From contig NZ_NOYI01000009.1 in the NCBI RefSeq assembly GCF_002258785.1, forward strand, positions 62,001 to 126,000: a stretch of DNA of 64,000 nucleotides. Reading direction: 5' to 3'. Origin of the DNA: Rhodococcus sp. 06-235-1A. Lineage in GTDB: Bacteria > Actinomycetota > Actinomycetes > Mycobacteriales > Mycobacteriaceae. The position numbers and the translations under genes are program-made. The notes beneath the pieces were generated by a model that saw only the letters and a program-made list of their open reading frames with translations, did no database searches and was not told the DNA's origin. Below are positions 1 through 3,514 of the stretch, in pieces (position 1 is the stretch's first letter; each line of letters starts with the position of its first letter).

Positions 1-31
1 GCCGTCACTCGATCGTTGTACCGTCCAAGCC

Positions 32-88
32 ATGATGCACCTGCAGCCACTGACGACGACGCCGGTTTTCTTCCGGCGTCCGAAGTAG
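32..88 (+). CDS. threonine-rich leader peptide
   Basis: An 18-codon open frame encodes MMHLQPLTTTPVFFRRPK and stops with TAG 24 nt before the terminator stem. Three consecutive ACG threonine codons (53-61) sit just upstream of the first RNA stem, where a stalled ribosome would choose between alternative structures. No Shine-Dalgarno is visible, but the ATG is spaced from TACCGT (19-24) as expected for a leaderless mRNA. The gene downstream encodes a threonyl-tRNA synthetase, so the codon content matches the regulated function. The peptide probably has no role beyond being translated. Translation is inferred. Confidence 0.7.
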   Translation: MMHLQPLTTTPVFFRRPK

Positions 89-112
89 GCCTGCAAAGCC
101 CCTGTTTCGACG

Positions 113-139
113 AACCCCGGGAGTTGTTCCCGGGGTTTT
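113..139 (+). terminator. attenuator terminator hairpin
   Basis: AACCCCGGGA (113-122) and TCCCGGGGTT (128-137) form a perfect 10-bp stem with a 5-nt loop, followed by a short T run (TTTT counting the end of the stem). It lies between the leader peptide and the ThrRS gene, the place expected for conditional termination. Confidence 0.75.
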
Positions 140-186
140 GACGTTTCTGGGCACTTCTTCTGGGCCACAGCAGAAGTGGAGCACCC

Positions 187-1404
187 ATGAAGTTCGACCA
201 CAGCCAGCTCGGGCGCGAGTTGGATCTCTTTGCAACCAGCCCGGCCATCGGTGCCGGTCTACCCGTCTGGCTCCCAGACGGCGCAATCATCAGAGCGGAG
301 TTGGAGAAACTGGCGGCCGAGGAATCGGCTCGATCGGGATGTCTCGGCGTCTACACCCCCGTCCTGGCCAAACGCTCGCTGTTCGAGAGATCCGGGCACT
401 GGGACAAATTCTCGGCCGATATGTTCCCCCCGATGCGCATCGGGGGCGAGGAATACGTTCTGCGACCGGCCAATTGCCCTCATCACACCCAGGTCTTCGC
501 AGCACGCGGACGCAGCTTTCGTGACCTTCCGTTTCGAGTATCGGAGCTGGGGTCGATGTTCCGAAGCGAACTGTCCGGTGTACTGGGCGGATTGACCAGA
601 GTTCGGCAGATCTCACTCGACGATGCGCATGTGTTCTGCACCCCTGATCAGGTCGGAGACGAAGTCCGACTGGCTCTCGCCTCCATCGAAAGATGTTATC
701 GCGTAATGGGACTCGTTCCCTCGTTCAGGCTCTCGCTTCGGGGCAGGACTGGACGCTACCTGGGTGACGCCGCGCAGTGGAGTACCGCCGAGGGGCAGCT
801 ACGCGCGGCACTGGGTGATCGTGAGTTCACCGTCGGCTATGGAGATGCCGCCTTCTACGGGCCGAAAATAGATGTACAGGTCGCCGGTCATCAGGAGACT
901 GTGTCGACCGTGCAGGTCGATTTCAATCAGCCCGAGCGGTTCGGCCTCGACTACACCGGGTCCGACGGTGAGAAGCATCGACCGGTGATGATCCACCGCG
1001 GCGTGCTCGGTTCGATGGAGCGTCTGACCGCGATGCTGATCGATCGCCACGCAGGTCGAATGCCACCATGGCTCGCACCTCGGCAATTGGCGGTGATTCC
1101 GGTGAGCGCGTCGGATTCCCCGCCGGCGAACGCGCTGGTCGACCGACTGCACGACGCATCAGTACGTGCCGAGATTCTCGAGGACGGTTCCCTGGGCGCA
1201 CGTATCCGGAGTGCAAGACTGCATCGCGACTCCTACATCGCGGTCATCGGCGAACGAGAGCGAGACAGTGATGCGGTCTCGGTCTCGTATCCTGCACTGA
1301 ACGCGACAGCTGTACTCGGTAGGCACGTTTTCGTCGCGGCGGTACAGCACGACATACATTCTCGCGCTCTGCTTCCCACTGTCCCGGACACGGAGAATCA
1401 CTGA
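187..1404 (+). CDS. threonyl-tRNA synthetase-like protein without TGS and editing domains
   Basis: This 405-aa class II synthetase would charge tRNA-Thr in the cytoplasm. It starts directly in the catalytic core and lacks the N-terminal TGS and editing domains of the usual ~640-690 aa enzyme. The three zinc/threonine-binding ligands are present: Cys97 (RPANCPHH), His148 (LDDAHVFC) and His270 (VMIHRGVLGSMER). The motif FYGPKID (223-229) and a C-terminal anticodon-binding domain from about residue 297 are also visible. Start at the ATG 47 nt after the attenuator stem. The preceding Thr leader suggests induction when charged tRNA-Thr falls. It could be a backup enzyme or a ThrRS-inhibitor resistance copy; a full-length thrS is probably elsewhere. 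Family assignment is firm; the role is inference. Confidence 0.85.
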   Translation: MKFDHSQLGRELDLFATSPAIGAGLPVWLPDGAIIRAELEKLAAEESARSGCLGVYTPVLAKRSLFERSGHWDKFSADMFPPMRIGGEEYVLRPANCPHHTQVFAARGRSFRDLPFRVSELGSMFRSELSGVLGGLTRVRQISLDDAHVFCTPDQVGDEVRLALASIERCYRVMGLVPSFRLSLRGRTGRYLGDAAQWSTAEGQLRAALGDREFTVGYGDAAFYGPKIDVQVAGHQETVSTVQVDFNQPERFGLDYTGSDGEKHRPVMIHRGVLGSMERLTAMLIDRHAGRMPPWLAPRQLAVIPVSASDSPPANALVDRLHDASVRAEILEDGSLGARIRSARLHRDSYIAVIGERERDSDAVSVSYPALNATAVLGRHVFVAAVQHDIHSRALLPTVPDTENH

Positions 1405-1450
1405 CATTTGACACTGAAATCATTCGCCGAACGACGATAGCGTCGAGGAC

Positions 1451-2599
1451 ATGAGCAAGCTACGAATCCTCGCCGCCCTCACAGTCTCGACATCCCTGCT
1501 GGTCAGTGGGTGCTCGTCAACGGACGAACCGTCTACCGTCGAGCCGACCACCACGACGCCGTCGAGCGGGAACATCAGGACCGACGACGTCCAGGCTGCC
1601 CTGGACGCTCTGGTCGACGCCGGATCCGTGGCCGCTGTTGCGCAGGTACGCGACGGTGAGGATTCCTGGTCGGGAGCGGCCGGTCTGGTCGAGCGCGGGG
1701 GCACCGAGGCTGCGTCCGCCGACGACCCGGTCCGTATCGCCAGCGTCACCAAGGCAATGGTTGCCGCAGTGGTGCTGCAGCTCGTCGACGAGGGAAAGCT
1801 CGAGCTCGATCAGCCGGTAGACGAGCTGCTACCCGGCCTGCTGCCCAAGCCGGTCACCGTCCGTCAGTTGCTCGATCACACCAGTGGCGTGCCGGACTAC
1901 TTCACCGGATTCGACTCTGCGGAGCAGATTGCATCTCGCTCCGCCGATTCCATTACCGACGACGAGTTGATCTCACGGGCGTTGGCGATGCCCTGGACGA
2001 GTGAACCGGGCTCCGAATTCGTCTACTCCAACACCAACTACGTTCTTCTGGGCCGCATCGTGGCCGCCTTGGACGGACGAACCATCGGCCAGTCGTTGCA
2101 GGACAGAATCTTCGGCCCGTTGCAGATGACCGACTCCACCTACCCCACCGATTCGGCCATCGCCGACGACGCCCTGCACGGTTACACCCTCGAGAACGGG
2201 ACGTACACCGACGTAACCGATTACGACGCCAGCATCTGGTCGTCCGGTGCCGCAGTGGTCTCGACCGTCGGCGACATGAACGTCTTCTTCAAAACATTGT
2301 TCGACGGCACGTTGATCCCGCAGAACCTGATCGACGAGATGCAGGTCGTGACGCCATCCGCGTACGGACTCGGCCTGCTCCTGGGCGGAGACGCGTGCAA
2401 CCCGGGTTCGGGCGAGCTCGTGTTCGGCAACCGCGGCAACGGCTTCGGCTACCGCACCTACGCGTTCTCGAGCCCGGACGGGCAGCGTCAGGTATCGCTG
2501 GCCTGGACCGCAGCAGCTCCGAATCCGGCCGCCGACCCGCTGGAGCAGCCGGCCACCGAGGCATTGATCGCCGGACTGGCGTCGACCTGCCCGGCATAA
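1451..2599 (+). CDS. serine hydrolase lipoprotein, beta-lactamase / D,D-carboxypeptidase class C fold
   Basis: A 382-aa exported lipoprotein with a signal peptide ending in the lipobox LVSG-Cys21 and a Ser/Thr/Pro-rich linker to about residue 40. The penicillin-recognising fold is shown by SVTK (98-101, nucleophilic Ser98 and Lys101), HTSG (143-146), the YSN triad (192-194) and LHGY near 242-245. Family members are D-Ala-D-Ala carboxypeptidases, esterases or class C-like beta-lactamases; the substrate cannot be told here. TAGCGT (1438-1443) 7 nt before the ATG suggests a leaderless transcript. It converges with the aminotransferase gene, with 3 nt between the stop codons. Confidence 0.85.
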   Translation: MSKLRILAALTVSTSLLVSGCSSTDEPSTVEPTTTTPSSGNIRTDDVQAALDALVDAGSVAAVAQVRDGEDSWSGAAGLVERGGTEAASADDPVRIASVTKAMVAAVVLQLVDEGKLELDQPVDELLPGLLPKPVTVRQLLDHTSGVPDYFTGFDSAEQIASRSADSITDDELISRALAMPWTSEPGSEFVYSNTNYVLLGRIVAALDGRTIGQSLQDRIFGPLQMTDSTYPTDSAIADDALHGYTLENGTYTDVTDYDASIWSSGAAVVSTVGDMNVFFKTLFDGTLIPQNLIDEMQVVTPSAYGLGLLLGGDACNPGSGELVFGNRGNGFGYRTYAFSSPDGQRQVSLAWTAAAPNPAADPLEQPATEALIAGLASTCPA

Positions 2600-2602
2600 C
2601 AC

Positions 2603-3514
2603 CTACAAGACGGACACCCAGCCGTGTACCTCGTCGCTGGTGAGCGCGGCCTGGTGACGTTTACGGAGAGTCAGCGTCACTGGCCCGCTCTCCTTCGATC
2701 CGACTGCACGACCGTCGATTTCGTAGACCGGCGCGACCCCGGCCGACGTGCCACACACGAAGACCTCATCGGCGATGTACAGCTCGGTGAGGTCGACGGT
2801 GCGCTCCTGAACCGTCAGCCCTTCTTCGCGCGCCAGAGTCAGGATGGTTCGGCGGTTGATGCCGTCGAGAATGTCGCTGGTGACGTCGGGGGTGACGAGC
2901 ACTCCGTTCCGGACGAGGAAGATGTTCGCGGCACTGAGTTCGCAGACATGGCCGTTGATGTCGAGAAAGATGCAGTCATCGAAGCCGCTGTCGATCGCAT
3001 CCTGTTTGGCCAGAACGGAATTGACGTACGCTCCGTTCACCTTGGCACGCGAGGGAATGGCGTTGTCCGGGATTCGTCGCCACACACTCGTCTTCAAACG
3101 CATCCCGTTCTGCGGGACAATGGGATTGGCGTCGTACAGGAAGATGGACACCGTGGTGTGCAGTCCGCGCACCCGCGTTCCGGGAATCGACTCGTCCACG
3201 TGGACGGTAGCGCGAACGTAGACCTCGGTCGTCGGGGCATTGGCAGCGACCACGTCGCGCGTCACCTGTACGAATCGCTCGAACGTCCACTGCGAGGCGA
3301 ACGTGTCGATGCCGATGATCTTGCAGGATTCGACGAGCCGCTGATAGTGATCGAGCAACCGGAAGGCGGTACGTCGTTCACCGTCCACCTGCACGGGGAA
3401 CACCGTGTAGACACTGAGCCCGTACAGGACGGCCGAGGTCGCGACCCCGAGCGTCGCGTCCTGCGCGTCCACCAAGCGATCGCCGAAATACACCTTCGAG
3501 TGCGGAAGAGCCAT
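2603..3514 (-). CDS. class IV PLP aminotransferase (branched-chain aminotransferase-like)
   Basis: A 303-aa fold-type IV aminotransferase, related to IlvE, D-amino-acid aminotransferase and aminodeoxychorismate lyase. The Schiff-base Lys is likely Lys158 (SRAKVNGAYVNS) and the cofactor-binding Glu is Glu192 (CELSAANIF). Length fits the family. IlvE-like transamination of Leu, Ile and Val is the most likely activity, but substrate cannot be fixed from sequence alone. It is a single gene; TAGCAT on the minus strand (3521-3526) 6 nt before the ATG suggests a leaderless mRNA, divergent from the aldo/keto reductase. Confidence 0.8.
   Translation of the reverse strand: MALPHSKVYFGDRLVDAQDATLGVATSAVLYGLSVYTVFPVQVDGERRTAFRLLDHYQRLVESCKIIGIDTFASQWTFERFVQVTRDVVAANAPTTEVYVRATVHVDESIPGTRVRGLHTTVSIFLYDANPIVPQNGMRLKTSVWRRIPDNAIPSRAKVNGAYVNSVLAKQDAIDSGFDDCIFLDINGHVCELSAANIFLVRNGVLVTPDVTSDILDGINRRTILTLAREEGLTVQERTVDLTELYIADEVFVCGTSAGVAPVYEIDGRAVGSKESGPVTLTLRKRHQAALTSDEVHGWVSVL

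Follow-up and report, generated by a model that had tools for sequence, protein, structure and literature searches.

The locus considered here raises the question of how the expression of a second threonyl-tRNA synthetase (ThrRS) gene is controlled in a genome that also has a separate full-length thrS. The gene lies at the beginning of the window, i.e. the whole stretch of 64,000 nt that was analysed (G000:C32:62001-126000); the closest named loci of this genome are those of Rhodococcus sp. IEGM 1381 and Leaf278, with ThrRS identities of 89% and 86%, respectively, in the named-genome search. A sequence-only reading had proposed a ribosome-mediated threonine attenuator in front of the gene. Conservation and folding in different ribosome states both agree with this assignment, and positions 19-186 very probably constitute a transcription attenuator of this type, which senses charged tRNA-Thr and controls an auxiliary, short ThrRS.

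The gene product is a ThrRS according to TIGR00418 (396 bits, cutoff 384), as had been supposed; what had been overlooked is that it is a short paralogue, of 405 aa, beside the full-length enzyme of 708 aa. Domain searches reveal only the class II catalytic core and the anticodon-binding domain, with no match for the TGS and editing domains. A long ThrRS is also encoded in each of the eight short-ThrRS genomes inspected. In a tree of 172 ThrRS the short enzymes group together (support 0.972), with no other ThrRS inside the clade and none of them outside it, and the three zinc ligands are all kept in 94 of 94 aligned sequences. The Thr content of the short genes is low, 2.33% of codons over the 94 loci and 4.35% in the flanking ORFs; in the window gene it is 3.70%. 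The gene at 1451-2599, on the same strand and 46 nt past the ThrRS stop, encodes a serine hydrolase of the beta-lactamase fold (Pfam PF00144) whose start resembles that of a lipoprotein; the gene may be co-transcribed, and it seems to lie downstream in the close relatives L086 and L088 too.

The features of the locus are collected in Table 1. The leader, the three stems and the terminator all read in the window at the positions that had been assigned to them. A -35-like TTGCCA is present just outside the window, upstream of the -10 box. Positions 1-186 fold better than shuffled sequences (z -3.1; 1 of 200 shuffles as good). A generic terminator scan did not list the hairpin at 113-137 and listed one site inside the gene instead.

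Table 1. Predicted attenuator elements and the ThrRS gene that follows them (window positions)
Feature	Position	Strand	Remarks
-10 box TACCGT	19..24	+	7 nt upstream of the leader ATG; start predicted to be leaderless
Leader ORF MMHLQPLTTTPVFFRRPK*	32..88	+	ATG at 32, TAG at 86-88, 18 codons; second ATG at 35
Three Thr sensor codons, ACG ACG ACG	53..61	+	
Segment 1	58..65	+	Pairs with 73-80 (1:2 stem); 60-65/73-78 is CGCCGG/CCGGCG, 8 bp as 58-65/73-80 in the fold
Segment 2	70..80	+	73-80 with segment 1; 70-76 with 117-123 (antiterminator 2:3, CTTCCGG/CCGGGAG)
Segment 3	113..123	+	113-122 is the terminator 5' arm; 117-123 pairs with segment 2
Segment 4	128..139	+	Terminator 3' arm at 128-137, overlapping the TTTT run at 136-139; 3:4 arms 113-122/128-137 are AACCCCGGGA/TCCCGGGGTT
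Segment 5	152..163	+	152-158 with 172-178; 117-123 is a possible partner of 157-163 (weak in the window)
Segment 6	172..181	+	3' arm of the hairpin adjoining the ribosome-binding site; SD-like GGAG at 178-181
Short ThrRS gene	187..1404	+	405 aa; catalytic core and anticodon-binding domain; 1 ACG among 15 Thr codons

The comparison is based on 94 short-ThrRS loci. In a search of 301 genomes of the family the short frame is the best match in 30; from the 31st match on, the frames listed are long and at most 45% identical. The named-genome search gave ten orthologues; four of these have, over the compared stretch, the same sequence as loci already in the family set and were dropped, and six were kept (two from Microbacterium and one each from Nocardioides, Intrasporangium, Antribacter and Kribbella). 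A search of 394 genomes of the class found a short ThrRS in 61 at E up to 1e-95, missing at least one; 58 of these genomes were fetched, leaving out the own genome, one already in the set and one whose match begins at contig base 52. The short enzyme is patchily distributed: it occurs in 6 of 30 genomes of the genus, in 30 of 301 of the family and in 61 of 394 of the class.

A leader is present in 93 of the 94 loci; in L172 the contig ends 103 nt upstream of the gene. The run of Thr codons, whose conservation in orthologues had been proposed as a check, is kept, with TTTP in 91 of 93 leaders, ATTP in L102 and ITTP in L110; the leader of L175 falls outside the search pattern and was identified by eye. 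In the first alignment the last two Thr codons and the Pro codon read ACG ACG CCG in 36 of 36 rows. Over the 93 leaders the second Thr codon is always ACG, while the first, which lies outside stem 1, is ACG in 84, ACC in 6 and ACT in 1, with Ala and Ile found once each; the third Thr codon and the Pro codon are fixed by the search pattern, and their constancy over the 93 leaders is not counted. The second Thr codon lies partly, and the third together with Pro wholly, inside stem 1, so the choice of ACG and CCG at these positions may be structural. An in-frame stop follows 8-14 codons after the second Thr codon in all 93 leaders. No such leader was found in 700 nt before the match start of any of nine long thrS (eight genomes also with a short one), and by eye none is seen upstream of the long thrS of the own genome. 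Chance can be excluded, because the leader is conserved in all loci with enough upstream sequence and is found before none of the nine long genes; the 93 loci are related, and the tests carry no tree correction.

The start of the leader has features of its own. A TANNNT box ends 6, 7, 8 or 10 nt before the in-frame start in 93 of 93 loci, against 3 of 753 control ATG or GTG codons taken further upstream (spacings of 4-10 nt were allowed in leaders and controls, and among several possible starts the one with a box was chosen); an SD-like motif precedes the start in 1 of 93. The leader peptide had been described as leaderless, and these predicted starts are in line with this. To judge from the spacing of the -10 box, the RNA would begin at or next to the leader ATG, and the ribosome would load on a leaderless message.

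The distribution of the element was followed with an RNA model, R1, built on stem 1:2 only from 36 loci, which include the own genome and one other genome of the class. In the MAFFT alignments A1 and A2 the terminator arms of different clades fell into different registers; A2 was dropped, and R1 is based on A1. In the own genome R1 has one strong site, and its second match is weak (E 0.65). At E up to 0.01 it matches 66 of the 394 class genomes, among which are 59 of the 61 with a short ThrRS; in the other two the contigs end 51 and 103 nt upstream of the gene. The remaining seven matched genomes comprise one missed short ThrRS, two full-length thrS, one contig edge and three cases without leader. 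An attenuator at other genes was considered and rejected: the matches in G559, G322 and G489 have neither Thr leader nor ThrRS in the fetched stretch and look like chance, as do the second matches in G560 and G382, where the fetched stretch also holds neither. In L203 (G516:C18:1-600) a Thr attenuator near the contig end is followed by an ATG, with no ThrRS similarity in the roughly 100 nt left.

The two full-length genes belong to one actinobacterial family, and in 150 genomes of this family R1 gave matches in 71 at E up to 0.001. Eighteen of these, taken from the weaker matches, were fetched: 13 lie before a full-length thrS, 3 before a short ThrRS and 2 without ThrRS in reach. Fifteen attenuated full-length genes were thus inspected, including the two from the class search (L196, L197, L234-L237, L239-L243, L245-L247, L249); by eye, the leader of L241 has T-R-T-P in place of TTTP. 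Plasmids carry the short enzyme as well: 16 records match it, five of them not actinobacterial, and the leader is present in all five copies whose upstream region was inspected. One copy (L252) is on the pSCAT megaplasmid of Streptantibioticus cattleyicolor, a fluorothreonine producer; its short ThrRS has a Thr leader, in which CGCCGAGG is seen by eye in place of CGCCGG, and may matter for a toxic Thr analogue.

The three helices 1:2, 2:3 and 3:4 are mutually exclusive and are placed so that a stalled ribosome would free segment 2. In 90 loci the best 2:3 duplex is 4 to 11 bp long, and a GC-rich terminator hairpin was found by script and judged right in the same number of the 93 (in the other three, omitted from the 2:3 count, the script had misplaced the terminator). 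A TTTT tract is present in the window; most relatives have no clear U run. Covariation, which the sequence-only reading had suggested looking for in all three stems, is found in part. Stem 1:2 is invariant in the 36 aligned rows and thus provides no such evidence, and 3:4 covaries weakly; for 2:3 covariation is moderate, as the pairing extends beyond the CCGG core by 2.04 bp with the own partner and by 1.55 bp with permuted partners (p 0.0012, 25 classes, no tree correction).

Folding of the window with assumed ribosome footprints comes out as expected as long as arm 4 has not emerged. When the RNA is folded to position 127, before arm 4, stem 1:2 forms with P 1.0 if no ribosome is present; with a ribosome on the first or second Thr codon 2:3 forms at P 0.99, on the third at 0.57, and with a ribosome at the stop codon neither helix is formed. 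With arm 4 present, 3:4 wins at equilibrium in all five ribosome states (P 0.98); hence, antitermination must be kinetic.

The following sequence of events can thus be proposed. With ample Thr-tRNA the ribosome would reach the stop codon and cover segment 2, so that 3:4 would form and terminate transcription; if the leader is not translated, 1:2 would form, leading again to 3:4. When the Thr-tRNA that reads ACG is short, the ribosome would stall on the three Thr codons and mask segment 1; 2:3 could then form before arm 4 is made, and RNA polymerase would continue into thrS. The isoacceptor sensed is most likely the one reading ACG. Since thrS is almost devoid of ACG, it would be translatable during the very shortage that induces it.

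A further level of control may be added to this scheme. The pairings 3:5 and 5:6 have a strand in common, close to the ribosome-binding site of ThrRS, which suggests a second, translational layer: in many relatives segment 5 has two alternative partners, the apical part of segment 3 and the ribosome-binding site, and the site might be freed after antitermination. Helix 5:6 would hide the site unless apical segment 3 captures segment 5; as this part of segment 3 would be free only if the terminator is unformed, readthrough and translation would be coupled. Such a two-level switch extends the attenuator model and is not exclusive of it, and we hold it as a tentative idea, with the balance somewhat against it. 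It was assessed on an alignment of 62 rows (61 distinct), drawn from 59 of the 94 loci plus three plasmid copies, with the clade of the window left out. For helix 3:5, 94.9% of 487 cells are paired, double changes number 30, and the covariation is 0.283, compared with 0.194 in shuffles (none of 500 reaches it); for 5:6, 80.3% of 603 cells are paired, again with 30 double changes (a level attained by 0 of 500 shuffles), and the covariation score is 0.200 vs 0.165 in shuffles (1 of 500). These values are inflated by the kinship of the rows. With permuted partners as controls, which include the 15 full-length thrS loci, the own duplexes are stronger for both 3:5 (-17.9 vs -13.45, sd 0.44, 41 classes) and 5:6 (-17.95 vs -15.08, sd 0.28, 100 classes), with 0 of 5000 permutations as good in either case. 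Words common to segment 3 and the SD strand are also longer than in permuted pairs (4.51 vs 4.10, p 0.0008). In three Streptomyces plasmid copies the common forms GCGAG in segment 3 and CTCGC in segment 5 are changed together to GCAAG and CTTGC, and GCAAG recurs in the ribosome-binding strand of two of them. GGAGCGA is common to segment 3 and the SD strand in the full-length thrS loci L237 and L245. Against the switch, equilibrium folding leaves the SD no more open when 2:3 is forced (mean openness 0.25, and 0.27 without forcing; more than 0.1 higher in 6 of 90 loci), SD openness is hardly below that of shuffles (0.30), and for 3:5 the 5% level of the shuffles is missed by 23 of 90 loci. In the window itself 3:5 is weak, with p 0.69, and p 0.28 or 0.035 depending on the stretch taken.

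The genes under the attenuator avoid the codon used in the leader. In the short ThrRS genes ACG accounts for 12 of 892 Thr codons, compared to 895 of 2431 in the long flanking ORFs, chosen by length alone; 85 of 94 short genes have no ACG at all, and its share is below that of the own flanks in 88 of the 89 genes with at least 10 Thr codons in the flanks. The window gene has 1 ACG in 15, and the other long ORFs of the window 297 in 956 (binomial P 0.03). Avoidance extends to the attenuated full-length thrS, with 6 ACG among 349 Thr codons and none in 10 of 15 genes, whereas ten unattenuated long thrS have 80 of 326; one of these ten comes from the attenuated full-length family (L180, 5 ACG in 23 Thr codons). 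The attenuator cassette is thus found on at least two kinds of thrS gene, both avoiding ACG. Codon bias due to high expression is not favoured as the cause, because the G-ending codons of Pro, Ala, Ser, Val, Gly and Arg in the short genes are at or above the flanking level. Compared with the unattenuated long thrS, the G-ending codons of Pro are slightly lower in the short genes (57.8 vs 60.2%), and those of Ser are lower in the full-length attenuated genes (31.7 vs 41.1%); the other codon boxes are not lower.

The controlled genes use ACC and ACT, which are both read by the GGU anticodon; among the 47 tRNA matches of the own genome, the anticodons CGU, GGU and UGU are each represented by one tRNA-Thr gene. 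Avoidance of ACG would allow translation of thrS during shortage of the tRNA that the leader senses. According to the theory, as given in the available part of PMC1183508, a leader preferentially contains the codon of the isoacceptor that starvation affects most. A joint reading, in which the leader senses the charging of tRNA-Thr(CGU), thrS is purged of ACG and the ribosome-binding site is freed only in antiterminated RNA through competition of 3:5 with 5:6, appears rather doubtful when taken as a whole.

Other explanations of the locus have to be weighed against the attenuator. T-box control in Firmicutes and operator autoregulation in E. coli are known for thrS, and one of these could act here, with the Thr ORF being incidental; yet no Rfam family, T-box included, matches positions 1-3000 of the window at E up to 1, apart from a miRNA model below cutoff in a downstream gene, and the ORF, the position of its stop and the -10 box are all conserved, which leaves this reading with hardly any likelihood. 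It is scarcely more credible, and still highly improbable, that the elements act only as RNA and that the ORF is an accident of the conserved ACGACGACGCCGG stem. Stem 1 does lie within the Thr and Pro codons and does not vary in any of the 36 aligned rows, which favours that reading, but the first Thr codon, outside the stem, still encodes Thr in 91 of 93 leaders, with the synonymous ACC or ACT in 7; the in-frame stop is kept within its 8-14 codons past the second Thr codon in all 93; and avoidance of ACG in the regulated genes is most simply explained by a translated sensor.

A different alternative leaves the attenuator mechanism as it is and concerns its natural signal. Instead of amino acid shortage, this could be a natural product that inhibits the housekeeping ThrRS; the short enzyme would then be an inducible, inhibitor-insensitive spare. 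The trpRS1 of Streptomyces coelicolor is said to be such an inducible spare synthetase against indolmycin. The accessory distribution in genus, family and class and the plasmid copies speak for this possibility, which we nevertheless consider unlikely rather than likely. Changes conferring borrelidin resistance fall at L489 of E. coli ThrRS, according to the part of PMC4389257 at hand. In the alignment the equivalent position is occupied by Gln in 90 of the 94 short enzymes, and the long enzymes encoded alongside them have Leu there in 6 of 8 cases (eight of ten long enzymes are covered; two were dropped because of a stop just after the match start). However, Gln is also found there in 17 of 70 other ThrRS, including 15 of 15 rows that are actinobacterial by title, and thus cannot serve as a marker of resistance; the second contact residue, H309, is conserved in all 94 short enzymes, and no obvious inhibitor cluster is seen among the annotated genes within 4-5 kb on four plasmids. 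An inducible spare enzyme, which might be directed against ThrRS inhibitors, would agree with the patchy spread and the plasmid copies. A separate observation concerns L185 (G624:C6:207202-209184). This second full-length ThrRS carries Tyr, His, Tyr and Thr where the human enzyme has H391, F539, Q566 and L567; this is the pattern of the borrelidin producer S. parvulus in the same source (PMC4389257), and the L185 genome may make borrelidin or resist it.

Threonine attenuation of a ThrRS gene, as the preferred reading of the locus, has relatives among known systems. The auxiliary trpRS1 of S. coelicolor was reportedly placed under an attenuator by Vecchione and Sello in 2010; it too is a spare aminoacyl-tRNA synthetase gene of an actinobacterium behind a leader peptide, but it concerns Trp and an antibiotic-resistant enzyme, whereas here the amino acid is Thr, and any resistance of the enzyme would be hypothetical. 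The polycysteine attenuators of mycobacteria, reportedly described by Canestrari in 2020, share with the present leader a leaderless regulatory ORF in actinobacteria and differ in sensing cysteine and not threonine. In the E. coli thr operon the leader contains Thr codons and termination is mediated by the ribosome; that attenuator controls biosynthesis and uses ACC, whereas here a ThrRS gene is controlled and the codons are nearly all ACG. Eight ACC codons are counted in this E. coli leader by PMC1183508.

Leader-peptide attenuators before synthetase genes of actinobacteria were also reported, for trpS and leuS of Streptomyces and of the classical kind, by Seliverstov in 2005, whose text, in the part available, describes no conserved RNA structure for the threonine operons of actinobacteria (PMC1262725). 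The sequence-only reading had supposed that a leader of this kind before a ThrRS gene was without precedent in actinobacteria, and this does not hold: in the available part of PMC8079986, a thrL before thrS (SLIV_19410) is listed for S. lividans TK24, leaderless by RNA-seq and with termination given as 'not clear'. Its 18-codon leader, MKRVRPFLETTPGFVPAR, contains Thr and has TTP and VPAR, as do many of the leaders compared here, those on Streptomyces plasmids included (PMC8079986). It differs in having two Thr codons and in coming from one species, and the antiterminator, the second layer, codon avoidance and the spread of the element do not figure in the same part of that account (PMC8079986). 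Nor was any account of these four found in the literature searched, which was mostly open-access, so this absence is weak evidence. What appears to be new is the presence of the same attenuator before the full-length thrS of one family (15 loci) and before plasmid thrS copies, the avoidance of ACG in the genes under its control, and the covarying helices 3:5 and 5:6.

Thus, what had been a single line in a transcriptome table becomes a widespread actinobacterial regulatory family with a clear design. The avoidance of ACG in the controlled genes provides a natural test for the theory of selective loss of charge among isoacceptors in starvation, and the strand common to the terminator and the ribosome-binding site suggests how the attenuator could silence leaky transcripts. 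The short ThrRS, including the copies found on plasmids, are candidates for an inducible back-up against Thr shortage or ThrRS inhibitors.
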